Source: Fodinibius saliphilus
Lineage (GTDB): Bacteria; Bacteroidota; Rhodothermia; Balneolales; Balneolaceae
Assembly (NCBI RefSeq): GCF_005869845.1
Contig: NZ_VAWF01000004.1
Location: 186,001-250,000, forward strand
DNA length: 64,000 nucleotides
Direction of reading: 5' to 3'
Made by a program: the position numbers and the translations under genes. Position 1 is the first letter of the stretch; each line of letters starts with the position of its first letter. The notes under the pieces were generated by a model. It saw only the letters and a program-made list of their open reading frames with translations, made no database searches and was not told where the DNA came from. Below, piece after piece: positions 12,302-61,019 of the stretch.

Positions 12302-12305
12302 GTAA

Positions 12306-14915
12306 TCAGCGGTTTAGTATTTCATGCATCTTTTTTACTTGGTCGGAATTATCAAACCAGATCTCTTCAAGCAGAGGTTTGATCTCATACTCAACCGTTT
12401 CCTGGTACCACTCATCCTCACTTTGATTGTTATTAAACGTGCAAAAGTAACTATGGCCGATCCGAAATCCTTCATTCAGATCTTGTTTAATAACTTTATT
12501 TACTTTTTTTACAGATGACTGAATATGGCCGCGCAATGATTTGGAAACACCTTGGTTATCAAGAAAGGCCAAGAATTTGTCCTCAAATTTTGGCTCTAAG
12601 CTTATAAAAGCGAAACGGCGGCGTAGGGCATAGTCAATAATAGATAACGAGCGGTCCGCGGTATTCATGGTCCCTATGAGGTGAAGATTAGGTGGAACAA
12701 AGAAGGTATCCTCCTCATCTTCGGCATAAGTGAGCTTGGTGGCAAAACTGCTGTTTCTTTTATCCGCTTCAATAAGCATCAGCAGTTCGCCAAAGATCTT
12801 GCTCAAATTTCCACGGTTAATCTCATCAATGATAATGAAGAAGTCTCGGTCCTTGTGGGTATGAGCCTTTTGACAAAATTCATAAAAGATTCCATTACGT
12901 AAATTTGTGCCGTTTTCGGTTATGCGTAACCCCTGGATAAAGTCTTCATAACTATAGGACTGGTGAAATTGTACGACTTCAATCTGGGAGTCATTTTCAT
13001 ATCCCATGATCTGATATGCCAGTTTTCGAGCGATAAAAGTTTTGCCCACTCCGGGAGGACCTTGCAAAATAATGTTCTTCTTGCGTTGTAGGATCGAGAT
13101 AATCTCATCGAACTTACTTCTGGACAAGAAGGGTTTATCCGGATCTTCGTCGAAATCATATGGCTTTCGGCTGCTACTTTCCAACTTCCGCTCTTCGGAA
13201 ATATTCTTTTGATCGATGGTCGCACGGATAATGTCATACTCCTCCTCGGTCAGAGAGAATAGACTCCCCTGGTTATTGATAAATACCTCACAGTCTTTGA
13301 GGCTGGGATCACTCTTTAACTCGTTCCAGCTTACCGGGACTTCGAGTTTTTCAATAACCTCAAACTCAATGACTTCCCCTTCATCTTCGGATTGATGCAG
13401 CTCTTCGGTGATTTGCATGATAGCCCGAATCTGTTTGGACGGACTGCTCTCATATCCGATTATCAGATCACCAGGCTGAACCGATTCAAAATACTTGTAA
13501 ATTCTTCGCTTATTTCCCTTTTCATTACGGGAAGTGTAGGTTTGCTGGTCTCCTACCTTCTGATCGCTTAGGCTCCATATTGATGGGTTAGCATTTAGCC
13601 ACCAATAGTTAGTCTCTGTTTGCTCATCAATATCAGAATCAATGTTCTGGACCTTATTATAAACAGTACTATAATCCAAGTCATACTCATCAAAAACTTC
13701 TGACAACTCAGGATATAGGCGTACATATTCACTAAAAATAAACTGCCAGGTTTTGGTTGGACTAAAAGTATCTGGTCGGAACAGATTGGTATAGTTCTGA
13801 TAGGTTTCGGACTTATACTCATACACTTTAGTTGTAAGCCAGTTTACTTTCCTCTGGTGTGGATATTTATCACTATCATGATATTCATATTCGCCAGTAA
13901 TGATTCCAATCCCCAAAACTTTATTTACGCCCTGATTGGCAAATATAATATCACCAATATTCGCCGTCTTAAATAACCAGGCATTCCATGTTTTATTCGT
14001 TTTGTCATCCTCATCTAATCCTGCAATTTTATTCAATTCCTGCCTACTACCTACATCGGTAATATCACCCAGCTCAAGATCCTTATAACCAATCCCAATC
14101 ATTTTTTCATCACGGAAACGATCCCAATCAACAGCCTGAGATCCTGGACTATACTTATAGTAACTTCTCGGAGCACTATTGAGTTGAATTATGTCGTCTT
14201 TAAGCTCCTTTAAAGTGGTTTTTATTTCAGAGTAGGATGATACGTCCCTTAATTTTTCCTTTGGTTGATTCTCATCAAGGGTTTCCTCTAACGTACCACC
14301 AGCCATATAACCAGCTTTGGGCTCGCTACCAAACCTAACAAAGAATTGATAGGCCTCTTTGTGTGACTCTTTTTGAATAGGATATAATGCTAACCAACAT
14401 ATACTGCTACCAAAGTTTTGCGCACCGTTAAAATCAACAGTATGAATCTGATAATCAGTTAATTCCAGGTCCTTGATTAACTGGTTACTAATCTGTTTTA
14501 AATACTGACGTACCGTTTCTTTCACCGTATCACGATAGAAAAAAGTATAGAAAAGAGGCCAATATCTTGACCAAGCTAAAAAGGCATTTGTCTGCTTTGA
14601 TGATGCCTCCATTTTGTCCAACTGTTCATCCGGAACATGTTCAAGTTCCTCTCTTTTTTTGTCTCCAATATTCCCTTTGATCCCTTCCACTATCTCTGGG
14701 GTAATATGTTCTCCATTCAATAACCTACCGGCAACCTCAGCACGCAACATATTAACAGGCTGATACCTTCGGGTAGGATCACCATATTCATTATAAACAC
14801 TCTTTAGCTTGTCTTTTCCCAGTATTCTCATCGCCTCAAATAAACCCTGGTCATCTTTTTCATAGGTTCTATATTCCTTGGCCAGCTTGATTAGATATTC
14901 AAATTGTTTTTCCAT
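12306..14915 (-). CDS. mcrB: McrB-type AAA GTPase with two PUA/EVE-like reader regions
   Basis: 869 residues from the ATG at 14915, which lies directly after the stop of the upstream NTPase gene; an ATG at 14936 would overlap that gene by 20 bases. Numbering from 14936: residues 1-250 hold a region without a family I can name; about 258-430 is a PUA-like region; about 443-570 is an EVE-like domain (YWWLNANPSIW). The AAA motor has Walker A GPPGVGKT near 626, Walker B FFIIIDEINRGN, and the McrB signature GTMNTADRS. McrB assembles on modified or otherwise marked DNA, hydrolyses GTP and activates McrC. The double reader module suggests recognition of modified bases. Confidence 0.88.
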   Translation of the reverse strand: MEKQFEYLIKLAKEYRTYEKDDQGLFEAMRILGKDKLKSVYNEYGDPTRRYQPVNMLRAEVAGRLLNGEHITPEIVEGIKGNIGDKKREELEHVPDEQLDKMEASSKQTNAFLAWSRYWPLFYTFFYRDTVKETVRQYLKQISNQLIKDLELTDYQIHTVDFNGAQNFGSSICWLALYPIQKESHKEAYQFFVRFGSEPKAGYMAGGTLEETLDENQPKEKLRDVSSYSEIKTTLKELKDDIIQLNSAPRSYYKYSPGSQAVDWDRFRDEKMIGIGYKDLELGDITDVGSRQELNKIAGLDEDDKTNKTWNAWLFKTANIGDIIFANQGVNKVLGIGIITGEYEYHDSDKYPHQRKVNWLTTKVYEYKSETYQNYTNLFRPDTFSPTKTWQFIFSEYVRLYPELSEVFDEYDLDYSTVYNKVQNIDSDIDEQTETNYWWLNANPSIWSLSDQKVGDQQTYTSRNEKGNKRRIYKYFESVQPGDLIIGYESSPSKQIRAIMQITEELHQSEDEGEVIEFEVIEKLEVPVSWNELKSDPSLKDCEVFINNQGSLFSLTEEEYDIIRATIDQKNISEERKLESSSRKPYDFDEDPDKPFLSRSKFDEIISILQRKKNIILQGPPGVGKTFIARKLAYQIMGYENDSQIEVVQFHQSYSYEDFIQGLRITENGTNLRNGIFYEFCQKAHTHKDRDFFIIIDEINRGNLSKIFGELLMLIEADKRNSSFATKLTYAEDEEDTFFVPPNLHLIGTMNTADRSLSIIDYALRRRFAFISLEPKFEDKFLAFLDNQGVSKSLRGHIQSSVKKVNKVIKQDLNEGFRIGHSYFCTFNNNQSEDEWYQETVEYEIKPLLEEIWFDNSDQVKKMHEILNR

Positions 14916-14916
14916 T

Positions 14917-17526
14917 TTAAACAACCCTATGTTCATTTTTCCTATTTAACTTTTCATACTCATCTTGAATTAGAGAATATACTGCATTTCTAATAGGCTC
15001 TATTCTACTAAAAGATTCTAATCCCCAATAAGTACCAACTCCATAATATCCTTGGTATTCAGCTTTCAGTTTCTCTTTGTCCTCCCCTGCTACAATTTTG
15101 ACATCTACAGTTTCATTCAATTCCTTGACATCAAAATAGACAAGCTGTTCTCCAAACCTTTTATCTTCTCCGTTTTGAATTAGGAAAATTTGGACAGGGA
15201 AAGATGTGCGAAAATGGGATGCTGCTGTTGGGAAATTAACTTCAAGAACTTTTTTATAGCTTTGATAAAACTCTTTAAAAAAGGACACCGATCTCTCTAT
15301 CAAAAACTTCCTATGTTCTGTAGTTAACTCCTCCTTAATAAGGCGATATCTTTTAATGACTTCGATTAAGTCCGCATTAGGAGAAACTATTTTATCATTA
15401 CCAGCTAATTTTTTCCTTTGTATATGCTTTCTTAATCTCGATTCGAAGTCTTCTAAATCTATATTCCTCTTTGGTAAACCTCCATGGCTCAAGGTCGATT
15501 CAGGAACTTTAATAGTACTATGAAACCTATCACTTTTAAGTTTATCCAAACCTTCAAGAAGCTCACCAATTGTAAGGACATATTGCTTTGAGGTATTAGA
15601 AATTCTACTTCGCCTACCTTTCAACATCTTACTCAAAGAAACAGCTTCAATGTATAGGGCTTCTTGTTCCATTATTTCTGTTTCAATAAGACCGCCATCT
15701 CGTACAAAATCTGATAACTGACTTTCTACATCCATAAATGCAAACTCAACGGGATAGGACTGTACCGCTGATGTACCGATATAGGAATGTAAATAACTTA
15801 TATTGTATTTTTTTCGATAGTAGTTAACAGTCTCCCCAGGATCATCAGCATCGATCAACCTCATTATCTCTTTTTGACCAGTAACTACCACTTTGTCTTT
15901 ATTTTTTGGAGTAATAGGACGGTACCCATATAGCTGCCCTGCCTCACTTTCATTTTGCTCAACCAATAAACCGATATTCTTATAACCTCTGGGAGCAAAC
16001 TTTAACACAAGATTTGGGAAGTGACGATTTATAATCTTTTCATACCATACTAATACACCATTATATGCTTCGTCAAACTCATTTTTATCATAGGTAAAGT
16101 TTTCATAGACTTTTTCAACCTCTCCCACAGTATAAGTTTGTCGATTCTCCCGACACCATTTGGTTAAAAAGAAATCAGATGAGACCAACTCCTCCCAAAT
16201 TTTTTTCCAAAAGACTCTTTTAGTTAAATCCTCTTCAAGTTTATAAAAACCACTAACAAATAGAGCAATTTCACTGCCAAAATTTTTAGATAGAAAAGGA
16301 CTAATTGATTTTTCTTCATGATGAATTTCAAGAGCAGCAAAAAACTCCTGCCATTGGTCATGTTCAAAACTAATACTTTCATCAACTTGGATTAGTAACC
16401 CCTCTTCTTTCAAGTCCTCCAATATTGAGTCAACAGAGTATTCACTATAACCTAACCTATTTTGAATTTTATGAACGCTCTTCGTTAGTACTTCTCGAAA
16501 TTTATTATATGGAACAGAATAGGCGGATTCTTCAAGTTCGATAAAGAGCTCATAAGCAACAGCCCCTAAAACTTTCTCTTTTAGTTCTAAGGGTAATGTT
16601 TTATTAGGCTTTCTATTCTCCTCATCGTGCCTACTCTTTAAGAACCGTTTAAATAAAAAAGATTTATTGTCATCAAACCTTTCTTCTTGATCAAAAACTT
16701 TCGCAAGAAGTTTTATCAATTGTGGCGTATCATATAACTGCAACAATTCTTTCTTATATCCATATTGCAGATGCATCCAGACTCGCTTAAATCTTTCTTC
16801 ACCAGCATGCACTTTTAAAATCTTCTCTGCTAATTCCCTATTGTTACCTAAATCTTGAATGTCATATAAATTAAACTGGAAAGGACAAGCTGAATAATGA
16901 TCTCTGCTTATTAGAACAAACTTGTTCTTTTTGTACTCCAGCAGATTATCAATTTTTGATTGATCCCGTTTAGCTTCATTTGACAATAAATTGTGTGCAT
17001 CATCGATTATGATTAAAAAGCGTTCTTTTTTTAATTGATCCTTAAGCCAATCTATATCAAAATGAGTGGGATTTTTAATCAGATCTCTTTCGACAAGTGA
17101 ATTGAATATCTCGCTAAATAGGTCATTGCTGGCATATTTAATATAAACTGGTATCCATTTTGGTCTTATAAAGCGATGATCTGAACACAGCTCAATCAAG
17201 AATTTTTTAACTAAGCTTGTCTTCCCGGATCCAGGCTTCCCTTGAATGTGTACTTCATCTTCCGCATTAAGTATTTCAGTTAATGATAATTCATTAAAAG
17301 AACTTGAAGCTGAATTAGCTATTAATTTGAGATCTGGGAAACTGTCAAAGACTTCTTCGTTTTTGAAGCGGTTTACTAGCTCTCTACAATATCTACTATA
17401 GGACTTGTTATAAAACCTTAGCCAACTTTTTCGAATGGAGGGTATAAATAATGCAAATATAGGAGATGCTAATAGACCTAATAGGCCATATTCTAAAATA
17501 AAATTCCAAATCGCTTTCAATCCCAA
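14917..17526 (-). CDS. Membrane-anchored NACHT/STAND-like NTPase coupled to McrBC
   Basis: 869 residues. An N-terminal hydrophobic segment (about residues 9-29) predicts one membrane helix. The P-loop is GKPGSGKTSLV (96-106) and the Walker B is FLIIIDDAHN (170-179), followed by a helical region as in NACHT/STAND ATPases. The C-terminal 450 residues have no family I recognise and may be the sensor. The start is a TTG right after an in-frame stop; no ATG is available nearby. The stop is one base from the mcrB start, so the genes are translationally coupled. Such NTPases are common signalling modules in phage defence; here it may sense infection and control McrBC. Confidence 0.75.
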   Translation of the reverse strand: MGLKAIWNFILEYGLLGLLASPIFALFIPSIRKSWLRFYNKSYSRYCRELVNRFKNEEVFDSFPDLKLIANSASSSFNELSLTEILNAEDEVHIQGKPGSGKTSLVKKFLIELCSDHRFIRPKWIPVYIKYASNDLFSEIFNSLVERDLIKNPTHFDIDWLKDQLKKERFLIIIDDAHNLLSNEAKRDQSKIDNLLEYKKNKFVLISRDHYSACPFQFNLYDIQDLGNNRELAEKILKVHAGEERFKRVWMHLQYGYKKELLQLYDTPQLIKLLAKVFDQEERFDDNKSFLFKRFLKSRHDEENRKPNKTLPLELKEKVLGAVAYELFIELEESAYSVPYNKFREVLTKSVHKIQNRLGYSEYSVDSILEDLKEEGLLIQVDESISFEHDQWQEFFAALEIHHEEKSISPFLSKNFGSEIALFVSGFYKLEEDLTKRVFWKKIWEELVSSDFFLTKWCRENRQTYTVGEVEKVYENFTYDKNEFDEAYNGVLVWYEKIINRHFPNLVLKFAPRGYKNIGLLVEQNESEAGQLYGYRPITPKNKDKVVVTGQKEIMRLIDADDPGETVNYYRKKYNISYLHSYIGTSAVQSYPVEFAFMDVESQLSDFVRDGGLIETEIMEQEALYIEAVSLSKMLKGRRSRISNTSKQYVLTIGELLEGLDKLKSDRFHSTIKVPESTLSHGGLPKRNIDLEDFESRLRKHIQRKKLAGNDKIVSPNADLIEVIKRYRLIKEELTTEHRKFLIERSVSFFKEFYQSYKKVLEVNFPTAASHFRTSFPVQIFLIQNGEDKRFGEQLVYFDVKELNETVDVKIVAGEDKEKLKAEYQGYYGVGTYWGLESFSRIEPIRNAVYSLIQDEYEKLNRKNEHRVV

Positions 17527-49280: not shown

Positions 49281-51206
49281 ATGAAGTTACAGAATATTGA
49301 AATTCACAAATATAAATCAATTGAGAATACACAAAATTTTGAACTAGATCCTGATGTTACAATTTTGGTTGGAATGAACGAATCAGGCAAAACAGCCATC
49401 CTAGAAACAATTGCCAAAACAAATTATTTTGAGCCTGATGAAAAGTTTGAATTCAGCAAAACACATGATTATCCACGAAGAGAGAAAAAGAAAATAGACA
49501 AAAGTGGTATAGATCCAGCCGCAATAACTTGTACTTATAAATGTGAAGATGACTTAATTAATGAAATCGAGGAAGATTTAGGTAAACAAGTTATTGATGA
49601 CTTTACTTTCAAAATTACAACAAAGTATAGTGGGAACAATACTTGGAGAATTGGCCATATAAACCATGGGAACTTTATTAAATATCAAACTGAGAAACTC
49701 GGCATTTATAGCAAAGCATTAGCCGACAAGTTAAAAGAGATTCAAAGTGTAGAGGAAATCGATTCTGTTATATCTCAATATAAGGATGAGAATATTGTTG
49801 ATGGTCTCAATGAGTTAAAAAAATATTTTAAAAATGAATGGAATTGGGACTCAGGCCCTATTTGGGAATATATTTCTAGGACATATATTAAACCCAATCT
49901 CCCAAAGTTTCTATATTATGATGAGTACTATTCGCTCCCATCCCGAATAAGTATCGAAGAATTACAACAAAATAATATTGAGGAAGAAGAGCTTAAAACT
50001 GCAAAAGCATTATTTGAGCTTGCCGATATTAATATCGATGATTTAATTAATTCTGATGACTTTGAAGACTACAAAGCAGAGTTAGAAGCCACACAAGCTA
50101 TAATTTCTGACGAGCTTTTTAATTATTGGTCTACAAACCGAAACTTAGATATTGAATTTGATTTAGATAAAGTTGAGGATACAGATGATCAAAATAATAA
50201 AAGAATTGTTGAGCACATTTTAGACGTCAGAGTTAAAAACTATCGGTCTAGAGTTTCTTTACCTTTAAAAAACAGAAGCAAGGGATTTAATTGGTTCTTT
50301 TCATTTTTAGTATGGTTTAAAAAAATACAAGAAGATTCTGATTCCGAATACATTTTACTTTTAGATGAGCCTGGCTTAAATCTACATGCTGCAGCTCAGA
50401 AAGACTTATTAGATTTTATAGAAGATTTAACTTCAAATTATCAAATTGTTTATACGACCCACTCTCCTTTTATGATTCCTGATGGTGGGTTGGATAGGGT
50501 TAGAACTGTTTTAGAAACTCAAGAAGGATCAGTCATATCTGATAGTGTAAAAGAAAAAGATCCTGACACCCTTTTTCCCTTACAAGCAGCTTTAGGATAT
50601 GATATTGCTCAAAACCTCTTCATTTCCAAAAATAACCTTCTTGTCGAAGGGGTTTCTGATCTAATTTACCTACAAACAATATCTTCAATCTTAGAAGAAT
50701 CAGGCAGGGAACATTTACTGAAAGAAGTTACCGTAGTGCCAACTGGCGGACTTCAAAAAGTTGCTACTTTTATTTCTTTATTACGAGGTAATAACCTTAA
50801 TACCGTATGCTTCCTTGATACTTTTAAAAATTCAAGCGGCAAAGCTAAAATGAATACTTTAATCAAAAACAAATTAATTGATTCAAAGAAAATATTATTT
50901 GCTGATAAATTTTTAGATGACCATAAGCAAGCAGATATCGAAGATTTATTTGATAAACAAGATTATCTCAAAATATTTAACGGGGCATTTTCTGAAAAAG
51001 ATGACATCAGTCTCGATGATTTAAACAGTGATATTAAACCTATTATCATACAGATAAATCAATTTTTGAACGTAGATAGATTTAACCATTATCGACCAGC
51101 AAATTACTTAGCTAAACAGGGTGCAGATAATTCATATTTTAACGATGGCACTTTAGATAAATTTGAGGAAGTATTTAAAGAGCTAAATAGTCATTTCGAT
51201 AAATAG
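49281..51206 (+). CDS. OLD-family-like nuclease (AAA ATPase with TOPRIM), cassette 1
   Basis: 641 residues. Walker A GMNESGKT near residue 31, in a block beginning IEIHKYKSI. The ABC-type Walker B is YILLLDEPGLNLHA (about 358), followed by the D-loop histidine region TTHSPFM. The C-terminal TOPRIM-like part has LLVEGVSDLIYL (about 453, the catalytic Glu) and CFLDTFKN (about 511), where the second Asp of the DxD motif is missing. OLD proteins are ATP-dependent nucleases used in phage defence. No UvrD-like partner (as in Gabija) is next to it. It is the first cassette, starting 86 bases from the cassette boundary. Confidence 0.82.
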   Translation: MKLQNIEIHKYKSIENTQNFELDPDVTILVGMNESGKTAILETIAKTNYFEPDEKFEFSKTHDYPRREKKKIDKSGIDPAAITCTYKCEDDLINEIEEDLGKQVIDDFTFKITTKYSGNNTWRIGHINHGNFIKYQTEKLGIYSKALADKLKEIQSVEEIDSVISQYKDENIVDGLNELKKYFKNEWNWDSGPIWEYISRTYIKPNLPKFLYYDEYYSLPSRISIEELQQNNIEEEELKTAKALFELADINIDDLINSDDFEDYKAELEATQAIISDELFNYWSTNRNLDIEFDLDKVEDTDDQNNKRIVEHILDVRVKNYRSRVSLPLKNRSKGFNWFFSFLVWFKKIQEDSDSEYILLLDEPGLNLHAAAQKDLLDFIEDLTSNYQIVYTTHSPFMIPDGGLDRVRTVLETQEGSVISDSVKEKDPDTLFPLQAALGYDIAQNLFISKNNLLVEGVSDLIYLQTISSILEESGREHLLKEVTVVPTGGLQKVATFISLLRGNNLNTVCFLDTFKNSSGKAKMNTLIKNKLIDSKKILFADKFLDDHKQADIEDLFDKQDYLKIFNGAFSEKDDISLDDLNSDIKPIIIQINQFLNVDRFNHYRPANYLAKQGADNSYFNDGTLDKFEEVFKELNSHFDK

Positions 51207-51212
51207 CCAGCC

Positions 51213-51341
51213 CACTAACCGTGCATTAAGTGGGACGTGCCTCGCCGTTGGTTACCGGTTTCAATTTTATCCGTTTCAATAGTACTTTTTAAACAAATTC
51301 AACGCTACTTTGCACGCCCCTTATGCGCAATGTCGTTAGGC
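51213..51341 (+). repeat. attC site 1
   Basis: R'' box CACTAAC (51213-51219) and R' box GTTAGGC (51335-51341), with inner ends GTGCATTAAG and TTATGCGC. The bases GCCCACTAAC at its start are the reverse complement of the first bases of cassette 1 at 49194-49203. Confidence 0.85.
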
Positions 51342-51376
51342 AAACCCGAATAGCAATCTAAAGCACCTTTCCAAAA

Positions 51377-52225
51377 TTGAAAGAACCAAAAAGGCTCACC
51401 CCCAAAAAAGACACGCTAAGAGAATTATATCTTAAATCAGGAAATCAATGTGCCTATCCAAACTGTACAAATGTAATAATAGATGAAGATGGGGATTTTC
51501 TAGGAGAAGTATGTCACATTAAAGCTGCTATGCCCGGTGGTGAAAGATTTGATCCTAATCAGACAAATGATGAAAGAAGGAGTTTTGACAACCTAATGCT
51601 TATGTGTCCAATACATCACACCAAAACTAATAATGTAGAAGAATTTCCAGTGCATAGGCTTAAAAAAATAAAAGCAAAGCACGAAGCTAATCATTTAGAA
51701 GAAGACTTAGACGAAAATTTTGATAGTGAAGAACTTTTATCACTCGCTGATATAGTTGACCAAATTGATAAAGACTCTAATTACGAAAAAAAGCTTGAGA
51801 AATATCTATGGTCCTCTGAAGCTATAAATGACTTTTTAGCCGAAGTAGAAAAATTGAAAGGCTTATTTAAAGAAACAATTGAAAAGATTAATAAATCGTC
51901 TCAGAACATTAGTTTAAGGCATGAATCGATAATTAATGATGGATTCAGAGTAATTTATAAAGGCAATGAATTAGCTTTTATATATAAAGCAGCTGATCTT
52001 AGAGTTACTCCAAAGTCTTCTATCACTTTCAAAATTTTCAGAAATAGACATGATGATTATTACTCTGAAGAACATCCACGCCCTGTATTGATAGAAACTA
52101 ATGAATTTAAATTCTCAAAAGACAGAAATGACAATTTCATCTGGAAATCAAAGAACGATAAATCAAGGAACTCAAAAAAACTTACTGATTACATCCTAAA
52201 ACATTTCATCCAATTTTTTCAGTAA
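51377..52225 (+). CDS. HNH endonuclease-like protein, cassette 2
   Basis: 282 residues. Start is a TTG, the only candidate because the cassette (from 51336) has no ATG ahead of it. The HNH nuclease core is seen in residues 20-100: CAYPNC, VCHIKAA (the catalytic His region), and LMLMCPIHHTK. The remaining 180 residues, after a short coiled stretch, end in a beta-rich domain without a name. Probably a DNA nuclease with a C-terminal sensing domain. Confidence 0.75.
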   Translation: MKEPKRLTPKKDTLRELYLKSGNQCAYPNCTNVIIDEDGDFLGEVCHIKAAMPGGERFDPNQTNDERRSFDNLMLMCPIHHTKTNNVEEFPVHRLKKIKAKHEANHLEEDLDENFDSEELLSLADIVDQIDKDSNYEKKLEKYLWSSEAINDFLAEVEKLKGLFKETIEKINKSSQNISLRHESIINDGFRVIYKGNELAFIYKAADLRVTPKSSITFKIFRNRHDDYYSEEHPRPVLIETNEFKFSKDRNDNFIWKSKNDKSRNSKKLTDYILKHFIQFFQ

Positions 52226-52235
52226 GTCTAAGTTT

Positions 52236-52368
52236 GCCTAACCAGCGCATTAAGCGGACATGCCTCGCCCCCGAGTCCTTGGGGCCCTCCTTGGTTTTAA
52301 GTCTCTTCTTCCGTTAGTTACTAATTCAACATTCATTCGCGTGTAGCTTATGCGAAATGTCGTTAGCG
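52236..52368 (+). repeat. attC site 2
   Basis: R'' GCCTAAC (52236-52242) and R' GTTAGCG (52362-52368). The bases AGTTTGCCTAAC match the reverse complement of the start of cassette 2 (GTTAGGCAAAC at 51335). Confidence 0.85.
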
Positions 52369-52398
52369 GTACAAATCATTAATTAATCAAACTTATCA

Positions 52399-53259
52399 AT
52401 GGAGTTAGCAAACTTAGAGAAAATAAGTCTTAAAAATCATCCAAATCTAAATGAGACGTGGCTCCAAGAAAAAATTGCCGATGATCCTCAAATTTTAGGA
52501 TTGGGAGATTTAGTACTCTTAGATCGAGAGCGGCAACAAAAAAGTGGCAGACTTGATTTACTTCTTACGAACGTTGATACAAATTCACGTTATGAAGTAG
52601 AAATACAACTCGGTACAACAGATGAATCTCATATTATTCGCTGTATTGAATATTGGGATATTGAGAAGAGAAGATATCCCCACTACGATCATTGTGCGGT
52701 TTTAATAGCAGAAGATATTACTAGCAGATTTCTAAATGTTCTTAGCTTATTCAATGGTCATATTCCGATGATGATTCTTCAGCTCAATGCCTTAAAAATT
52801 GATGACCGTATTGCACTCAATTTTGTCAAAGTAATGGACCGTTTTGAATTAAGAAAAGATGATGAAAGTGAAGTCAATCTTACGGAGACAAACCGTGAAT
52901 ATTGGAATGATAGAGCAAATCCTAAAACAGTTAAAATAGCTGATAAAATTCTCGATATAATCAATGAAAAAGCTAAACCAACTCAATATCTAAATTATAA
53001 CAAATATTACATTGGCCTATCAGACGGAGTAAAATCAAGGAATTTTATCCATTTTAAGCCCAAAAAACAATTTACACATATTTTATTTGAGATAGATCAA
53101 AAAGAGGATTGGGCTCAAAAGCTTGAAGACTCTGATATGTCTGCAGAAAAACACGACAAATGGTTAAAAGTTACATTAACACCTGGACAGGTTGACAAAA
53201 ATTTAGATTTATTGGAACCTCTTATTTTTCAGTCCGTCGAAATTTATAACAATAATTAA
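52399..53259 (+). CDS. Predicted PD-(D/E)xK nuclease-like protein, cassette 3
   Basis: 286 residues. The N-terminal part has RQQKSGRLDLLLTN and YEVEIQLGTTDESHIIRCIEYW, which look like the D...ExQ/K core of a restriction-type nuclease (Asp in GRLDLLL and E-I-Q in VEIQLG). This protein type recurs in accessory regions; I cannot name a family. The C-terminal third is alpha/beta and unrecognised. It starts with ATG 36 bases inside the cassette. Confidence 0.6.
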   Translation: MELANLEKISLKNHPNLNETWLQEKIADDPQILGLGDLVLLDRERQQKSGRLDLLLTNVDTNSRYEVEIQLGTTDESHIIRCIEYWDIEKRRYPHYDHCAVLIAEDITSRFLNVLSLFNGHIPMMILQLNALKIDDRIALNFVKVMDRFELRKDDESEVNLTETNREYWNDRANPKTVKIADKILDIINEKAKPTQYLNYNKYYIGLSDGVKSRNFIHFKPKKQFTHILFEIDQKEDWAQKLEDSDMSAEKHDKWLKVTLTPGQVDKNLDLLEPLIFQSVEIYNNN

Positions 53260-53266
53260 GTTGTAC

Positions 53267-53396
53267 CGCTAACGCGCGCATTAAGCGGACGTGCCTCGCC
53301 CTACCCTGCCGGTTTTGGTTTACTCAATTTCTGTAGTACATTTTGTTTTTAAATCAACGTTTGCCTGCACGAAGCTTATGCGCAATGTCGTTAGGT
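53267..53396 (+). repeat. attC site 3
   Basis: R'' CGCTAAC (53267-53273) and R' GTTAGGT (53390-53396). TTGTACCGCTAAC is the exact reverse complement of the start of cassette 3 (GTTAGCGGTACAA). Confidence 0.88.
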
Positions 53397-53415
53397 GTAC
53401 CAAAATAAATTCCAA

Positions 53416-53725
53416 ATGGTTAGTTCTGACAAAATTTATCAGGAGAGTAAAAAACAGTTTTCATTTCTCAAATCTGATTTTGGATTCAAAATTACAACTG
53501 ACAAAAATGAGAATATGTTTGTTCTCCTTAACTACACGAGAGGTAAAAACAACTATCTCCATAAATTTTGATCGCCGGGATAATTACTTATCGGTGGAAG
53601 CAACGATTTTAAGAGTACCAGATAAAGAATACATTCACAGATTCGAAGACATTAACCATTTTCCAAATGAAATAATGAGAAGTGCCAATAAGGTTAAGTC
53701 AATGTGCAGTAGATTTTTAGAATAA
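53416..53725 (+). pseudogene. Cassette 4 gene of unknown function, split by a frameshift
   Basis: Starting at the ATG at 53416 the protein reads MVSSDKIYQESKKQFSF... and stops at codon 52, while the other frame continues with TTISINFDRRDNYLSVEA to 53725. Removing one A from the A5 run at 53545-53549 joins them into a 102-residue protein. The total of 310 bases fits one extra base. A frame that stays open from 53291 starts outside the cassette, inside attC 3, and is a chance extension. Cause: sequencing error, loss of function, or slippage. No family recognised. Confidence 0.6.
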
Positions 53726-53732
53726 ATGCTGC

Positions 53733-53860
53733 ACCTAACCCTCATTAACTCGGACAGGCCTCGCCATCCCCTTGCCTCCCTTCTATTTATTAGTTAATCT
53801 TTCATTTTAAAACTAATTCAACATCCTGGCGCCTGCCGGTTATGCGCCATATCGTTAGGT
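53733..53860 (+). repeat. attC site 4
   Basis: R'' ACCTAAC (53733-53739) and R' GTTAGGT (53854-53860). The match to the start of cassette 4 is shorter than in other cassettes (CACCTAAC). Confidence 0.8.
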
Positions 53861-53880
53861 AAACATCTTCAGGAGACAAT

Positions 53881-55449
53881 ATGGATTTCAAAATTCAATT
53901 AAAGTTTAGAAACAGTAGTTCAGTTTATTTATCTGATGCTAAAAAGCATGCTAAGAAATTCGATGATTTTAAAGAGGCTGATTCAAACAAAAAAATAAAC
54001 TCACTAACTGTTTCACAAGAAGCATTACGGCGGAAAAGCTCTTCCTTTCTAAAGGTTTGGGAAATTGTGAAATCTTGGAAAGGGACTGAAATCTTATTGA
54101 ACGATGATCCCATCGACCAAAAAGAATTAAATTCCATAACCGATGTCATAAATTGTAATTCTGAATACCATAAAGCCGTAATTCAAGAAGATCATTGTAA
54201 AATTCGAGATGATATAGAAGGATGGGGATGTAAATTTTTAAATAGTATAGCACGACACTCACCGAATAGATATTATTGGAGAAATAGTAATCACAATTGG
54301 TATGACTTTGGCCATTTCGAGGAAGAATATAAATGGAAGGTTGATAAACAGAAGATTAAAGAAGTATTAAAACGAGAAGCACGTCTCAAAAATTTAAATT
54401 TATGTTCTGTATTCAATTTAGAAACAGTGTTTGAACATGTCGATACTTTACCCGACGAAATCAATGTTGAAGAATCAGAAAGCTGGGAAATTAAATATGA
54501 GGAAAGTATTGATGGGAATACATTGGAGAAAAAACCTAATGGTATTAAACCCCACCCAAACAATGGTAGCAGTAGTTCGTCATTAAGCATTTCTTTCGGT
54601 GCCCAAAAAGAAGAAGAGGAAAAAGATGAATCCACTGTAAACAATAGGCATATTCCAGATGTCGAATATGACGATATTGGTGGAATTGATGGTATTCTAC
54701 AAAAAATCAGGGAGGCGATTGAAATACCTTTTTTAAAACCTGAATTGATAAAGCATTTAGGAATACAACCCCATAAAGGAATTCTACTTGCAGGCCCACC
54801 CGGTACTGGAAAAACACTAATCGCAAAAGCAATTGCTAATCAAGTAAATGCACATTTCATTTCAATAAAAGGACCAGAACTGCTTAGTAAATGGCATGGC
54901 CAGTCTGAGGAAAATTTAAGAAAGGTATTTGAAGAAGCTAGAATAAATTCCCCTTCAATTATCTTTTTTGACGAAATAGACTCAATAGCACAGGAAAGAT
55001 CAAATGAAGAATCATTAAGGTTTGACTCAAGGTTTGTAAATCAGCTTTTGACTTTAATGGACGGTCTTGAAGAGTTTGAAGATGTAAGAATTATTGCAAC
55101 AACAAATAGAATTGAATTATTAGATAAGGCATTACTTAGGCCTGGTAGATTTGATTATAAAATCGAGGTAACAAAACCTGACTTAAAAGGTTGTCTTGAA
55201 ATTTTAAAGATACACACCAAAGATATGCCGATTGATTCAAATTTTAATCTTGAACTGTTCAGTGCAAAATTGTTGGGTTTAACCGGTGCTGAAATTGCCT
55301 ACATTACCCGTGAGAGTGCTTATAATTGTTTAAGACGTTCAATCAATGGTTTAGAGCCTAGATCAATTAACGAAATTAATGAGGAGCATCTTTCTAATTT
55401 CAATATTAGTCGAAATGACTTTGAAAAAGCCTTAAAAAGCCTCAAATAA
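53881..55449 (+). CDS. AAA ATPase, Cdc48/proteasome-type, cassette 5
   Basis: 522 residues. An AAA domain with Walker A GPPGTGKT (about 304), Walker B IIFFDEIDSI (about 358), and the arginine-finger region IATTNRIELLDKALLRPGRFD. It has the classical AAA second region of homology. The N-terminal 260 residues are without family and include a low-complexity Ser stretch before residue 240. A good ribosome binding site (AGGAG, 53871) precedes the ATG. In defence contexts such ATPases act as remodellers or as partners of proteases or nucleases; no partner is visible. Confidence 0.85.
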   Translation: MDFKIQLKFRNSSSVYLSDAKKHAKKFDDFKEADSNKKINSLTVSQEALRRKSSSFLKVWEIVKSWKGTEILLNDDPIDQKELNSITDVINCNSEYHKAVIQEDHCKIRDDIEGWGCKFLNSIARHSPNRYYWRNSNHNWYDFGHFEEEYKWKVDKQKIKEVLKREARLKNLNLCSVFNLETVFEHVDTLPDEINVEESESWEIKYEESIDGNTLEKKPNGIKPHPNNGSSSSSLSISFGAQKEEEEKDESTVNNRHIPDVEYDDIGGIDGILQKIREAIEIPFLKPELIKHLGIQPHKGILLAGPPGTGKTLIAKAIANQVNAHFISIKGPELLSKWHGQSEENLRKVFEEARINSPSIIFFDEIDSIAQERSNEESLRFDSRFVNQLLTLMDGLEEFEDVRIIATTNRIELLDKALLRPGRFDYKIEVTKPDLKGCLEILKIHTKDMPIDSNFNLELFSAKLLGLTGAEIAYITRESAYNCLRRSINGLEPRSINEINEEHLSNFNISRNDFEKALKSLK

Positions 55450-55467
55450 CTTGTCCCAAGTATGTTT

Positions 55468-55595
55468 ACCTAACCCGCGCATTAACGCGGACGCACCTCG
55501 CCTATTCTCTGCTGCTCTTGGTTTTAAGACTCGTCTTTCGTTAGTTGCTAATTCAGCATCAATCCGTGCGCAGGTTATGCGCAATGTCGTTAGGT
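55468..55595 (+). repeat. attC site 5
   Basis: R'' ACCTAAC (55468-55474) and R' GTTAGGT (55589-55595). TGTTTACCTAAC is the exact reverse complement of the start of cassette 5 (GTTAGGTAAACA). Confidence 0.88.
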
Positions 55596-55627
55596 TTCTT
55601 CCTTTAACTTAAAATAAGATTTCAGCT

Positions 55628-56386
55628 ATGACAGGAATCTGTGGACTTTGTAAAGAAGAAAAAAAGCTTTGTCATTCACACATCATACCTGAGTTTTTTT
55701 ATAAAAATATCTACGATCATTACGGTCGGTTTTATGAAATATCCACAGATGAAGATTCTAGAGTAAATTTTGAGCAAAAAGGTGCTAGAGAATATTTATT
55801 CTGTGAAGATTGTGAACAACACTTGAATACAAACGAAACATACGTCAATCAATTTTTCTTTGGTCGTACAGAAATTGATATGACGATCTATGATGAATAT
55901 GCTGTGGTTGAAAATGCTGATTACAAAAAATTTAAGCTTTTGCAGCTTTCAATTCTTTGGCGGGCAAGCATAACAAGTCACTCATTTTTTAGAGATGTAG
56001 ACTTAGGAGAAGAAGTCGAAAAGCAATTGCGGGAAATGATATTAGAGGAAGAACCCGGTGATCCTAGTTTCTTTGGATGTAACATCAACATGATCAAACT
56101 CCCAAAAGGCTTAGACGCTAATTTCTTTACCTCTCCTGATATCTTTGAAAAAGATGACAAGCTGGCTTATCGATTTGTATTCAGCAATATGGTTTGGATA
56201 TTTTTTGATCCGGAATCGAAAATTGATGAATCAATAGAACAAACGTTCATAAAACCTGATGGGCAAATAATAATTAACCAGATGGAATTTCAGCAACTTC
56301 CTTTTTTAACAGAGTTCGTAAAAGAGTTAAAAGAAGCTGGAAAACTTGAAGAAGTAGCCAAATTCACTAAAAAAGAAGAAACCTAA
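55628..56386 (+). CDS. Zinc-finger HNH-like protein, cassette 6
   Basis: 252 residues. The N-terminus has CGLC (residues 5-8), CHSHIIPEFF (16-25) and a later CEDC, a pattern resembling HNH-type zinc-bound nucleases; the H-S-H-I-I-P part resembles the first His strand. The remainder is unrecognised. The stop codon overlaps the first bases of attC 6, so the gene fills the cassette completely. Function as a nuclease is an inference. Confidence 0.6.
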   Translation: MTGICGLCKEEKKLCHSHIIPEFFYKNIYDHYGRFYEISTDEDSRVNFEQKGAREYLFCEDCEQHLNTNETYVNQFFFGRTEIDMTIYDEYAVVENADYKKFKLLQLSILWRASITSHSFFRDVDLGEEVEKQLREMILEEEPGDPSFFGCNINMIKLPKGLDANFFTSPDIFEKDDKLAYRFVFSNMVWIFFDPESKIDESIEQTFIKPDGQIIINQMEFQQLPFLTEFVKELKEAGKLEEVAKFTKKEET

Positions 56387-56507
56387 CCCGCGCATTAAGG
56401 GGACGCACCTCGCCTAGCCTTGCTCATTTTTGGCTTTTTAGCTTCTCGTTCATTATTTATCAACTCAACATTCATTCGCGTGTAGCTTATGCGTAACCCC
56501 AGCAGGC
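56381..56507 (+). repeat. attC site 6 (3' box degenerate)
   Basis: R'' ACCTAAC (56381-56387) is intact and AAGAAACCTAAC matches the start of cassette 6. The R' box at 56501-56507 reads AGCAGGC where GTTAGGC is expected, so recombination at this site should be impaired. Confidence 0.75.
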
Positions 56508-56533
56508 ATATCAAATTTACACTTTCCTGAATA

Positions 56534-57223
56534 ATGAGCAATAAAACGAAACCACGGTTTGTAATATTTCACAACGAAAAAGAGCTAATTGATGTAAAGA
56601 AAGATATTTATATACTACATCGACATCTTGAGCTTGTTCAAGATCAGTTAGAAAACGAGCTTAATAAGATAAAAAAAATAAAAAAGGAATTACCTAAAAA
56701 GAGAGAAGTTAAAAAATTAGAAAAAATTAGCCGTGCTTTAGATGAAAACCTTATAAAAGAACATGAGACATGGCTTAAAAATGGGGTTCCTCAAATTGTC
56801 ATAAATCCTTTTATTGTTTCAGCTTGGTCTCTTTATGAAAGTGTTATTAAAGATTTTGCATCTATACTGCAAAAGTCTAAGAACATCGAAAAAAGCATAG
56901 AAAATGCTGATGGAAGATACTTTTTAAAAAAAGCCGAAAACTATTTTAATAAAACACTAAAGCATCCACTGCATCTAACTAAGGAGCGTAATTCCGAGTT
57001 ACGACTTCTTAATGACATTCGAAATTCAATTGTCCATCATTACGGCAAAGTTTCTGCGCTTAGACCTAAGCTCAAGACTCAAATCCAAAACAATAAAATT
57101 GAAGGAATTAGAAGTATAAAAGAAAATGGGAAACTAGTTCTAAGCCTAAAATTTGCTGAACGTGGTTTTGAAGTTGTTAGAAATCATATTTTAACCCTAT
57201 TAAACAAATATCAAAAAATTTAG
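56534..57223 (+). CDS. HEPN-like protein, cassette 7
   Basis: 229 residues, all-helical and lysine-rich. RNSIVHHYG near residues 163-171 contains the R-x4-H ribonuclease motif of HEPN domains (R163, H168), preceded by LRLLNDI. Upstream is a long charged coiled region and a hydrophobic segment (FIVSAWSLYESVI). HEPN RNases cut tRNA or mRNA in toxin-antitoxin and abortive-infection systems. No antitoxin gene lies beside it, so it may be controlled differently or be a sensor. Based on motif only. Confidence 0.6.
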   Translation: MSNKTKPRFVIFHNEKELIDVKKDIYILHRHLELVQDQLENELNKIKKIKKELPKKREVKKLEKISRALDENLIKEHETWLKNGVPQIVINPFIVSAWSLYESVIKDFASILQKSKNIEKSIENADGRYFLKKAENYFNKTLKHPLHLTKERNSELRLLNDIRNSIVHHYGKVSALRPKLKTQIQNNKIEGIRSIKENGKLVLSLKFAERGFEVVRNHILTLLNKYQKI

Positions 57224-57821: not shown

Positions 57822-57841
57822 TTATGTGTGAAAACACATAA
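57822..57841. promoter_or_regulatory. LexA-type operator in front of lexA
   Basis: Inverted repeat TTATGTGT - 4 bases - ACACATAA, 6 bases ahead of the lexA start. A closely similar repeat lies at 59524-59547. This position suggests autoregulation by the LexA protein. Confidence 0.75.
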
Positions 57842-57847
57842 ATAACT

Positions 57848-58498
57848 ATGTCAAAACTAACCAACAAACAACAGCAGTTTTACGATACGCTGATCTCCTA
57901 TATCCGTAAGTACTTTCGCTGGCCAACGTATAAGGAACTTGCCGATCGGCTTGGATTTAGCTCAGAAAACAGCGTTACACAGTATTATGATGCACTGGTA
58001 AGCAAGCAATTTCTTAAAAAGGATAGTCAGGGTAATTATACCTTTACCAATCCTGCTGATGTTTGGATCCATGAAAATGGTCACAGGCAACCAACATCGA
58101 TTCCAATTGTAGGAGAGATTACGGCCGGAAGCATGCAGGAAGCTATTGAGGCGGATTTAGGAGAGGTTACCATTGGCGATTTCTTTCCCAATGCTTCGAA
58201 CGTATTTGCACTCCGCGTGAAAGGTGATAGCATGAAAGACTTGGGTATATCTACGGGGGATAAGGTCATCCTATCTAAGACAGATCTGCGAGATGGTGAT
58301 GTCGGAGCTGTGTTGTATGACGGTAACACCACACTTAAGCGAGCCCACATACGAACCACCGGGATTCGACTTGAGCCTGCTAATCCCGCTTATGATGACA
58401 TCATCATAAAACCTGGTGAATTTGAAGAAGTTACGGTTTTAGGCAAATATTTGGGACACATTACTGATGAAGGATTAGTCAAATCTCCCTTTCGTTAA
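57848..58498 (+). CDS. lexA: LexA-family SOS repressor
   Basis: 216 residues. An N-terminal winged helix (RWPTYKELADRLGFSSENSV) and a C-terminal S24 peptidase domain. The self-cleavage site is A93-G94 (EITAGSM), the catalytic serine is S128 (VKGDSMKD) and the lysine K164 (TTLKRAH). It represses SOS genes and cuts itself when activated RecA appears. It binds presumably the palindromes at 57822 and 59524, which differ from the E. coli and B. subtilis boxes. It ends 4 bases into the stop of the convergent gene. Confidence 0.93.
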   Translation: MSKLTNKQQQFYDTLISYIRKYFRWPTYKELADRLGFSSENSVTQYYDALVSKQFLKKDSQGNYTFTNPADVWIHENGHRQPTSIPIVGEITAGSMQEAIEADLGEVTIGDFFPNASNVFALRVKGDSMKDLGISTGDKVILSKTDLRDGDVGAVLYDGNTTLKRAHIRTTGIRLEPANPAYDDIIIKPGEFEEVTVLGKYLGHITDEGLVKSPFR

Positions 58499-58806
58499 TC
58501 CAAGAGCATTCCTGCTTCTTCATAGACCAAATACCAACCTACTTTTTTCGTGTCAAAGACAATATCTAAGTAGCGATCATCTTTGGTTTGTAAGGTAATA
58601 TGAATCTGTTTATGGCCGTGGCCGACCGGCTCTTCATGGCATTTGCGAATCTTTTGCACGCGATGGACCTGTCCATTTTGGCGCTTGATGCGTATTGGTT
58701 GCAAGCGTTTTGTAATGCCGTTTTGTTTATCAGCAAAGGAGGCCACTGTTGTAATGACGATCAGTGGCTCGGGCTCTTTTTCGCTATGTTGGTTACTGCC
58801 ACTCAT
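58495..58806 (-). CDS. Small protein of unknown function in the SRAP operon
   Basis: 103 residues from the ATG at 58806, which overlaps the end of the SRAP gene by 14 bases; a TTG at 58818 is possible. It is basic in the middle (VHRVQKIRKCHEEPVGHG) and ends in a beta-rich part. No family name comes to mind. Co-translation with the SRAP gene and SOS operator upstream suggest a DNA-damage role. Confidence 0.65.
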   Translation of the reverse strand: MSGSNQHSEKEPEPLIVITTVASFADKQNGITKRLQPIRIKRQNGQVHRVQKIRKCHEEPVGHGHKQIHITLQTKDDRYLDIVFDTKKVGWYLVYEEAGMLLD

Positions 58807-59488
58807 CAACCTCTTCAATTAGCTCAGGACCATTATTTCTGGTGGAGTTCACTTTCTGTGAAACTGGAAAGCGGTGAATTGCTTCATCCGGATAGGGCTC
58901 AAAGATCCCTCCGTCATAATAGGCCTTGGTGTTGTGATTGTTCGGATCCAACCAAAAGTCAAAGTCTTCTTTGGTCAAGATTACCGGCATGCGGTGTTTG
59001 TCATGGATCTGACCAACCGTATCATTACTATCGGTCGTGATAATGGTATAGGAAGGGATTTTCCTAGTCCCATTGGGAGATTCCCACTCGTAATATAGTC
59101 CGGCCAGTGGCATAATAGGTTTGTCTTTCATCTGAAAACCATAGGGATATTTTTCACCCCCAGACTTCTTCCACTCATAGAACCCAGAAACCGGAACAAT
59201 GCACCGATATTTTTTAAACGGTTCTTTGTAGGCCGCTGTCTCCGTTAGCTTCTCGGCCCGTGCGTTAAAATAGGGATACTTAGGCTTTCCTTCCTTTTCA
59301 TAGAAGGGAATAAGGCCCCAACGAAACCCTTCGATAGAACGGGTCCCATTTCGTTGCAGCACAATTGGGTTTTGCGTGGTCGGTGCCACGTTAAAGTTCG
59401 GCAGTATCTCATCAATATCGAACGGAACTTCGAACATATCCTTGCAGGCCTCCTGAAATTTAATATCTCTCCAATATCGTCCGCACAT
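58793..59488 (-). CDS. yedK: SRAP-domain (HMCES/YedK-like) abasic-site protein
   Basis: 231 residues. Catalytic Cys2 (MCGRYW), Asn in FNVAPT, Glu in SGFYEW, and His in DKHRMP: the residues that form and resolve a covalent link to abasic sites in single-stranded DNA. It shields such sites during replication stress. Its start is 36 bases from the palindrome at 59524-59547, shared with the divergent polymerase gene. Confidence 0.92.
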   Translation of the reverse strand: MCGRYWRDIKFQEACKDMFEVPFDIDEILPNFNVAPTTQNPIVLQRNGTRSIEGFRWGLIPFYEKEGKPKYPYFNARAEKLTETAAYKEPFKKYRCIVPVSGFYEWKKSGGEKYPYGFQMKDKPIMPLAGLYYEWESPNGTRKIPSYTIITTDSNDTVGQIHDKHRMPVILTKEDFDFWLDPNNHNTKAYYDGGIFEPYPDEAIHRFPVSQKVNSTRNNGPELIEEVDEWQ

Positions 59489-59523
59489 AACACTCCTGTT
59501 TGATTATTGTTGGCGACTTCGTA

Positions 59524-59547
59524 ATATATGTGTAAACACACATATAT
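59524..59547. promoter_or_regulatory. LexA-type operator between SRAP and polymerase genes
   Basis: 10-base arms ATATATGTGT and ACACATATAT around 4 bases. The inner TATGTGT-N4-ACACATA is identical to that in front of lexA. Likely controls both divergent transcripts. Confidence 0.75.
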
Positions 59548-59578
59548 AATATAGCTTCTTTTTTGTGGTGCTGTCAAT

Positions 59579-60937
59579 ATGAATATCCCTGATTTTAATC
59601 GCTTCCCTGAACTCACCGATCCCGGTCGCTACCAACTAAATAAGAACGTCCACAATATTACGCGATACCAAACCATTGCTGCCGACATGCAGCATCCGGG
59701 GAACTCTCCTCGCCTATATGTGCATGTAGATATGAACGCCTTTTACGCACAGGTCGAGCAACTGTGTTATAACTTGTACGGAATGCCGGTGGTGGTAGGC
59801 GGATGGCGCAAGCCGGACGGAACGGTCAAAGGGATTGTGGCTACGAGTTCTTACGAAGCCAGGGCATGGGGCGTAAAAACCGGCATGAGTGCTTTGGAGG
59901 CCTACAAGCTTTGTCCACATGTGATATTCAAGCAAGTGGACTACGAGAAGTACCACGCCTTCAGCAAACGTATTAAGGGCGTGCTGGATAGCTTTTCTCC
60001 GGACGTAGAGGCTTACAGTATGGACGAGTATTTCCTGGATATTACGTGGAAGCTTGAAGAATCCTATGAGCAACTGGTAGAATTCGCCTGGGCGATGAAG
60101 GAAGCCATCTATGAAGAAACGAATCTCCGATGCAGTGTAGGGATATCGACCTCCAAGACCTACTCAAAGCTGGCCTCAGACTTGGAGAAACCGGACGGAC
60201 TTACGGTACTGACAGAGGAGGAAGAAATTAAAGACAAGATCTGGCCCCTACCTGTTGATGAAGTATGGGGCATCGGCAGCCGTCGGTATGCTAAGATCAA
60301 AGGTCGAGGCATTACAACCATTGGTGAGGCTATTGACCGTGGATATCCCCTATTCCAAAAGCTGTTTGGCAAGTACTTTGGCAAAATGCTCTGGGAGACC
60401 GTAGCTGGGAAAGACCGGGCCATAGTTAGTGATGATACGGAATATATCCCCGAACGGGTTTCCTACGGCCATACCTTTTCGACGTGGACCGATGCCCCGT
60501 GGAAGGTAGCTGGAGAATTTGCCAAGGCAACCAAGCAGGTTTGTTACCGCCTGCGAGGATACGGCAAGAAGTCGGACAAGTATTTTGGAAACGTACGATT
60601 TCAAGGGCAAGAGAAAGAAGGATTCTCGTTTACCTTTCGGGCTCCGGGTTTAACTAATTTAGATGGGTATGTACTCCGCAATTGCCTGCAGAAAGTCCTG
60701 CCGATGCTATTCTACTGCAAAGACCAGGGAAAGCGATTTCGGGCAATCATGCTTGGAACGACTGAGTTAAATATGACCACACAAGCGGAACTGTTTTTCC
60801 AGGAGAATCCAAAGGTCCAGCGGATGTACCAGGCTATGGATTATATCAATAACCGGTTTGGGTTAGATACTATTGATCACGGCATTAGCCAATTTGATGT
60901 GAAAGGGAATACGCACTTTAAGGAGCGATCGATGTAA
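59579..60937 (+). CDS. dinB: Y-family DNA polymerase (Pol IV / UmuC-like)
   Basis: 452 residues. The palm has the catalytic patterns LYVHVDMNAFYAQVE and AYSMDEYFLDIT; CSVGISTSKTYSKLASD is the fingers/palm signature. An N-terminal extension of about 45 residues before the catalytic part and a little-finger domain follow the normal order. It performs translesion synthesis, presumably under LexA. No clear beta-clamp motif is seen at the C-terminus. The name dinB is by family; UmuC or ImuB type cannot be excluded. Confidence 0.9.
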   Translation: MNIPDFNRFPELTDPGRYQLNKNVHNITRYQTIAADMQHPGNSPRLYVHVDMNAFYAQVEQLCYNLYGMPVVVGGWRKPDGTVKGIVATSSYEARAWGVKTGMSALEAYKLCPHVIFKQVDYEKYHAFSKRIKGVLDSFSPDVEAYSMDEYFLDITWKLEESYEQLVEFAWAMKEAIYEETNLRCSVGISTSKTYSKLASDLEKPDGLTVLTEEEEIKDKIWPLPVDEVWGIGSRRYAKIKGRGITTIGEAIDRGYPLFQKLFGKYFGKMLWETVAGKDRAIVSDDTEYIPERVSYGHTFSTWTDAPWKVAGEFAKATKQVCYRLRGYGKKSDKYFGNVRFQGQEKEGFSFTFRAPGLTNLDGYVLRNCLQKVLPMLFYCKDQGKRFRAIMLGTTELNMTTQAELFFQENPKVQRMYQAMDYINNRFGLDTIDHGISQFDVKGNTHFKERSM

Positions 60938-61019
60938 TATAGAAATTGGGTGACAACATGGTGTCAGAAGTATTTGTTATTTAATAGTAGTAACAAAAAA
61001 GCCAATAAAACAGAATTAG

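Follow-up and report, generated by a model that had tools for sequence, protein, structure and literature searches.

Two TATGTGT-N4-ACACATA palindromes as the predicted private operator of a LexA-type repressor in a Fodinibius mutagenesis cassette

What is the role of two matching palindromes that stand 1.7 kb apart around a lexA-type gene of Fodinibius saliphilus, and how far does their reach extend in the genome? The stretch of DNA analysed here (the window) is 64,000 nucleotides long and belongs to a 3.6-Mb genome in 11 contigs (G000; genus Fodinibius, Balneolota, Balneolaceae). An earlier note on this DNA had predicted that identical 7-base half-sites at 57823-57840 and 59527-59544 form a new LexA box, and both palindromes were confirmed at these places. 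With a probability that we put at about 0.83, their common core, TATGTGT-N4-ACACATA, serves as a private operator for the LexA-type repressor whose gene lies between the two copies, and the whole would be a self-contained, damage-induced mutagenesis cassette (cassette A). Judging from sequence comparison, related salt-loving bacteria very probably possess several kits of this kind, and some of these kits at least have their own switch.

Box 1 (57822..57841, no strand assigned) is the inverted repeat TTATGTGT-GAAA-ACACATAA with perfect arms of 8 bp (57822-57829 and 57834-57841), and the ATG of the repressor gene lexA-A (57848) starts 7 bp after the end of its core. Box 2 (59524..59547, likewise without strand) is the inverted repeat ATATATGTGT-AAAC-ACACATATAT with perfect arms of 10 bp (59524-59533 and 59538-59547). 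It sits in a divergent promoter, between a gene for an SOS response associated peptidase (SRAP; start 59488, minus strand) and a Y-family DNA polymerase gene (polY; start 59579, plus strand). We propose box 1 as the operator through which lexA-A regulates itself, and box 2 as the operator of polY and of the divergent pair formed by the SRAP gene and a small gene. The Pfam domains LexA_DNA_bind/Peptidase_S24, SRAP and IMS bear out the earlier placing of the sites before lexA and between two DNA-damage genes; the 8-base TTATGTGT that the note gave in its title fits box 1, but box 2 has ATATGTGT.

The exact core occurs twice in G000, and both sites (2/2) lie inside cassette A, which on sequence alone is what a private box of a lexA2-type cassette would look like. 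By chance, 0.006 exact sites would be expected per genome (second-order Markov model trained on the window). No site with one mismatch was found in the genome; up to two mismatches gave 10 sites, the true ones included, versus 11 for a reversed-pattern control, and three mismatches in the window gave 3 sites versus 3.1 expected, so neither scan showed an excess. Among 128 Balneolales genomes (~416 Mb by summed sizes), exact sites were present in four: two in G000, two in G009, and one each in G043 and G108, where no open reading frame (ORF) for a LexA, SRAP or polymerase was seen by eye within 3 kb. The LexA of the G009 cassette is 81% identical to LexA-A and both boxes are present there; box 1 is kept with one change in the spacer, and box 2 overlaps a 42-bp block identical in both genomes.

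The repressor encoded by lexA-A (57848..58498, plus strand; 216 aa) consists of a winged helix-turn-helix and an S24 self-cleaving domain, with scores of 28.9 bits for PF01726 (LexA_DNA_bind; cut-off 23.7) and 75.5 bits for PF00717 (Peptidase_S24), and its residues 1-201 align with LexA of solved structures (phmmer). A93-G94, S128 and K164 align with their E. coli LexA counterparts; we take the first to be the cleavage site and the other two to be the catalytic pair, as in the E. coli protein. The SRAP/YedK-like protein (58793..59488, minus strand) matches PF02586 with 207.7 bits. The polymerase (59579..60937, plus strand; 452 aa) matches PF00817 (IMS) with 150.6 bits and holds the stretches DMNAFYAQVEQ and YSMDEYF. 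An additional lexA thus adjoins an error-prone polymerase gene, as in lexA2-type cassettes.

In the mechanism that we propose, a LexA-A dimer on box 1 would shut off its own gene, and a dimer on box 2 would hold off both polY and, in the opposite direction, the SRAP/small-gene pair. Members of the LexA family undergo RecA-stimulated self-cleavage, with induction after DNA damage. RecA filaments formed upon damage would trigger self-cleavage of LexA-A, both promoters would open, and a translesion polymerase together with a DNA-damage sensor/protector would be made. The cassette would be self-contained, with repressor, operators and effectors together. The repression half of this mechanism draws on sequence evidence; the cleavage and induction half draws on the behaviour of the family and on the aligned active-site residues. 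LexA-A would also act separately from the two further LexA paralogues of G000, because each appears to read a different box.

These paralogues were found as the remaining two of three Peptidase S24 matches in the genome, B at C3:385 kb (57% identical to LexA-A) and C at C3:361 kb (39%). Cassette B has the layout lexA, small gene (minus), polY (plus), with TATGTACGTATGTACATA before polY and TATGTACAAACATACATA (one mismatch) before lexA, and these are the only two sites in G000 within one mismatch of its palindrome, TATGTAC-N4-GTACATA. The box of type C is a direct repeat, TTTCATGT-N4-TTTCATGT, with a period of 12, and its exact match in G000 is confined to the promoter of its own lexA; no such polymerase gene lies within the 11 kb examined at this paralogue.

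The layout lexA, small gene (minus), polY (plus) was seen in 14 places: type A in G000 and G009; type B in G000, G010, G017 and G034; type C in G011 (two, one with ~2 kb between the small gene and lexA), G016 and G019; type D in G011, type E in G012 and type F in G016; and one further cassette in G037. In all four B cassettes each of the two promoters has a B-type site, which deviates by one base at most. For A, B, C and E the same box is visibly present in the lexA and the polY promoter. We scored the pairing of the two promoters as the summed best 20-bp match across the seven cassette types, and the true pairing was among 3 of 5040 pairings that reached its score (itself included). Tested individually with 100 Markov-resampled promoters per type, the pairing was clear for A (1/100 reached the score), E (1/100) and C (0/100). 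In the 12 Fodinibius genomes, all 10 exact matches to the type C box (TTTCATRT direct repeat) stand before lexA or polY. A wider SOS regulon for this box was rejected (29 matches at up to one mismatch versus 20 in the control); four of the 19 one-mismatch sites stand before lexA/polY by their coordinates (G011:C56:10669, G016:C11:9427, G018:C6:3734 and G019:C11:22897), and the other 15 look like background.

The box was also said by the earlier note to differ from known LexA boxes, and this holds for those of E. coli and Gram-positive bacteria. The half-site, by contrast, is that of a published Balneolaeota LexA motif, the direct repeat TTACACATATTTTWTACATA, which is backed by gel shifts with Balneola vulgaris LexA (PMC7739468); in box A it is arranged as an inverted, not a direct, repeat. 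LexA was searched in the 128 genomes (E 1e-10), and 117 of them yielded 127 matches, of which 22 come from 12 Fodinibius genomes; G034 and G037 contribute one each, and the other genomes 103. Genes and promoters were examined for 66 of the 127, that is for all 24 from Fodinibius, G034 and G037 and for 42 of the 103 others. In 42 promoters of standard Balneolales LexA, the best sites (33 distinct) form a YACATA direct repeat at an 11-bp offset with at most three mismatches, in a search seeded with this YACATA direct-repeat shape. A half-site matrix was built from these 33 boxes and all 16,384 7-mers were ranked; ACACATA, the type A half-site, ranks 2 and GTACATA, that of type B, ranks 3, versus ranks of 129-634 for the half-sites of C, D and E. 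The halves are inverted in A and B boxes and are direct repeats in standard and C boxes. No direct-repeat box of the published kind stands before lexA-A, where the box is an inverted repeat, and in G000 as a whole none was found at up to two mismatches, with 21 sites at three mismatches versus 31 in the control. On the simplest reading, A and B kept the half-site and turned one half round.

Two features were set aside in judging this change. The equal 11-bp spacing of direct and inverted 7-base half-sites was dropped as evidence, because the inverted figure depends on where the half-site is cut, and linker length as the cause of direct versus inverted order was rejected, with the start of the catalytic domain at residue 84 for A, at 81-82 for B and, for 37 of the 42 standard proteins, at 83-85. 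Residues 41-45 of the recognition helix, which we take to contact bases as they do in E. coli LexA, are NSVTQ in LexA-A and in all 42 standard proteins examined, and NSSVQ in B (4/4). In C they are NSIYQ in 10 of 13, NSIFQ in G016 and NSVTQ in G009 and G012; NSVYQ is found in D and G037, NGVHQ in E, and RSVTQ or RSITQ in F. These residues appear to vary along with the boxes. The C proteins of G009 and G012, with NSVTQ, go with a TATGTRT-like direct repeat, which was noted by eye and fits the trend. As a separate observation, the type F LexA proteins (L079 of G012, L084 of G016) have arginine at position 41 of this helix, where the other LexA proteins examined have asparagine; their likely box is without the CAT core.

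A LexA tree was calculated from 64 distinct proteins. A and B form a clade (100/99) beside the standard Balneolales LexA clade (90/81), C, D and G037 fall together in another clade, and E is a long branch. The standard clade holds none of the 22 Fodinibius proteins and standard LexA was not found in any of the 12 Fodinibius genomes, so the ordinary LexA appears to have been lost in this genus; type C LexA is present in all 12 genomes.

Thirty recA loci were collected, of which 29 could be parsed (that of G012 could not), and the best direct-repeat score of each was compared with 200 resampled sequences. Of 23 loci from other Balneolaceae genera (G034 and G037 apart), 16 had a score reached by at most 10 of the 200; G085, G091, G084, G035 and G038 had a similar-looking site reached by 11-43; G074 had no direct-repeat site, and G086 had 45 bp of upstream sequence only. 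A weak direct-repeat site was found in G037 (4/200). For the recA genes of Fodinibius (G000, G009, G014 and G019) and of G034 no direct-repeat box was found, the best score being reached by 100-148 of 200 resampled sequences. G000 has a recA gene; the 250 bp before it lack an exact A, B or C box, and 112 of 200 resampled sequences reach their best direct-repeat score. Exact boxes of these three types are absent before all 29 recA genes. As far as the four genomes and the three boxes go, recA of Fodinibius thus seems no longer to be under LexA control. Independently of the LexA box, another palindrome stands before recA in Fodinibius and many Balneolaceae (for example at L008 1403-1422 and at L148, L149, L150 and L159), ACTGACA-N6-TGTCAGT in G000 and TGACA...TGTCA-like elsewhere, as judged by eye; perhaps it is the site of another regulator.

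The surroundings of cassette A in the two genomes differ. We compared 19.9 kb around the G009 cassette with the whole window (blastn matches of at least 150 bp), and the DNA in common runs from 57822 to 60940, the extent that we assign to the whole cassette (no strand), with 83.5% identity; it begins at the first base of box 1 and ends 3 bases beyond the polY stop. The sole other matches are two weak ones (67-69%) in an McrB-like gene 44 kb away in the window. Cassette A is thus seen to have changed place as a whole unit. The B cassettes of G000, G010 and G017 have flanking DNA in common and therefore look inherited in place. In the window, a defence-like run (49281-57223; OLD/AriA-like ATPase, HNH-endonuclease-like, IetA-like AAA ATPase and weak HEPN-like genes) lies upstream of cassette A, with a YccF gene between them. 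In G009, an ORF that by eye resembles a tyrosine recombinase lies 0.4 kb from the cassette on one side, and an McrBC-like pair, recognised by eye, lies 2.5 kb away on the other. The window has McrBC-like restriction genes of its own at 11273-14936 (minus strand), one protein of which joins an EVE domain to an AAA part. A plasmid home of the cassette was rejected, as all 155 matched plasmid records were below 60% identity, and no LexA relative was found in viral contigs with two peptide patterns. A scan of named genomes gave 11 loci, two of them close (57-59%) and the others at 29-35%; loci of Fodinibius halophilus (NZ_JAALLS010000004.1) and of an uncultured Aliifodinibius metagenome-assembled genome hold 132 of 132 tested 50-mers each of the G010/G017 stretches.

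From these data a wider picture can be drawn, which we offer tentatively and hold to be somewhat less than an even bet. The ordinary LexA of Balneolales, together with its direct-repeat regulon (recA included), would have disappeared from Fodinibius, and self-regulated lexA-polY cassettes, in part mobile, would have taken their place, with mutually insulated specificities (A to F) and up to three paralogues per genome. A and B would have kept the ancestral half-site and gone from direct to inverted order, with one repressor head turned, and residues 41-45 would set the inner bases (NSVTQ with ACACATA, NSSVQ with GTACATA, NSIYQ with TTTCATR).

Several findings weigh against the private operator and this extension of it. 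LexA-A scores 108.5 bits (residues 1-204) with TIGR00498, the NCBI LexA equivalog, below its cut-off of 110.95; we take this narrow miss as divergence within the LexA family, the cut-off being one for naming and not a functional feature. Cassette A was found in only two of the 128 genomes (G000 and G009), and movement was seen for type A only. The individual pairing of promoters is borderline for B (5/100) and not significant for F (18/100), D (24/100) and G037 (50/100), so that a box of its own is well supported for cassettes A, C and E; for B the support comes from conservation in four species, and for D, F and G037 the claim is unproven. Between A and B boxes no more than two bases change per half-site, which makes their insulation a guess. 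In the tree, the node that joins A+B to the standard clade was marked by the program as a meeting of two long branches, and such a join may be false however well supported; the match of the half-sites is direct evidence, but the order of events rests on this unsure join.

Could the palindromes instead be the general SOS box of the genome, with a scattered regulon that includes recA and uvr? Their position before a lexA gene and DNA-damage genes would suit this, and the earlier note had expected the pair to serve as a genome-wide consensus before recA, uvr and polymerase genes. We give the idea very little credence. The scan returned the two cassette sites without any further exact or one-mismatch site, and an additional one before a uvr gene would have shown in it (uvr promoters were not inspected singly); sites at up to two mismatches did not outnumber the reversed control. 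The recA promoter of G000 lacks an exact A, B or C box and a direct-repeat box above resampled sequence, and G000 has two more LexA paralogues, whose boxes are different ones. The lack of further sites at SOS genes refutes a master SOS box and leaves a cassette-private operator untouched. The most plausible role for the LexA box of the note is that of an operator for the neighbouring LexA-type repressor, given that the cassette is found with its two boxes in a second species and that sister cassettes have the same layout with other boxes; its genome-wide role is not supported.

It is improbable, though less so, that the palindromes are targets of another dimeric regulator, promoter elements or RNA hairpins. 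AT-rich palindromes in promoters may have other causes and box 1 is only 7 bp from the ATG, but the boxes change with the repressor, cassette B combining this layout with another palindrome, the half-site agrees with the one proven for Balneolaeota LexA, and type C boxes, as direct repeats, would not form the same hairpin. Least likely of all, we think, is that the boxes belong to a mobile element, box 1 as its terminal repeat and box 2 as a copy inside it. Homology between the window and G009 does begin exactly at box 1 (57822), near the recombinase-like ORF of G009; box 2, however, is internal, 1.4 kb from the other end, no copy stands at the polY end, and homology would start at the same base if, upstream of the gene, the operator alone were under selection and the rest free to change. 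The private operator of LexA-A is thus the reading that we retain.

Two further parts of cassette A deserve description. The small gene (58495..58806, minus strand; 103 aa) overlaps the end of the SRAP gene and ends against lexA-A. Its product had no Pfam match to E 0.001, no PHROGs match to E 1 and no convincing match among solved structures; one weak match to DUF6504 (E 0.079, in 1 of 15 members) did not suffice to name the family. It is a frequent neighbour of Y-family polymerases in Balneolales: a protein of ~100 aa stands beside or near polY in 29 of 39 polY loci (27 of 37 distinct places, the rest including several short stretches), also where lexA lies elsewhere (loci including L027, L072, L086, L090, L091, L116, L120, L127 and L133), and an alignment of 15 members has six invariant columns. 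The small protein is possibly a partner of the polymerase. A weak promoter-like sequence, TTGACA-18-TATATT (11/12; 59548..59577, minus strand), reads into the SRAP gene and abuts box 2, which suggests that box 2 could control SRAP besides polY; in the scan of the region two promoter-like sites were found, versus 4.9 in shuffles.

How does cassette A relate to known systems? Reportedly, LexA2 of Pseudomonas putida has a box of its own, AGTAC-N4-GTGCT, and a regulon confined to its cassette. The second lexA of the P. putida lexA2-imuA-imuB-imuC(dnaE2) cassette controls its own mutagenesis operon upon DNA damage (PMC5261740). Cassette A resembles it in having an extra lexA predicted to be in charge of the adjoining mutagenesis genes, but the P. 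putida cassette is gammaproteobacterial and consists of imu genes in a single co-transcribed operon, where cassette A has SRAP and a Y-family polymerase. The Balneolaeota regulon belongs to the same phylum and has the same half-site (YACATA/ACACATA), and its described targets include lexA, translesion polymerases and a predicted SOS peptidase; unlike cassette A, with its inverted half-site and a predicted regulon of the cassette alone, it has the direct repeat and a scattered regulon that includes recA (PMC7739468). In the sister phylum Bacteroidetes, another report describes non-canonical LexA proteins, S24 repressors whose duplications go with box divergence and regulon reduction, and LexA is said there to change its binding site between phyla with duplication as the suspected route (PMC8565304); LexA-A differs from these proteins in its canonical winged helix (PF01726). 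A second lexA over its own mutagenesis operon (PMC5261740) and a change of LexA box after duplication (PMC8565304) are of an already known kind. New, as far as searches of the open-licence literature show, are box A, the occurrence within one genus of sister cassettes that differ in their boxes, and the passage from direct to inverted repeat under a retained half-site. These searches found no paper joining LexA and Fodinibius, no LexA-box paper by title among the listed matches for TATGTGT with LexA, and nothing relevant on LexA paralogue specificity among the matches listed.

Several steps of LexA box change thus seem to stand side by side in one genus, namely paralogues with different boxes, a half-site kept while its orientation changed, and a shrunken regulon. 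The change of a LexA box becomes testable here with small proteins and short DNA probes, and the cassettes suggest that bacteria may hold several separately set mutagenesis switches simultaneously.
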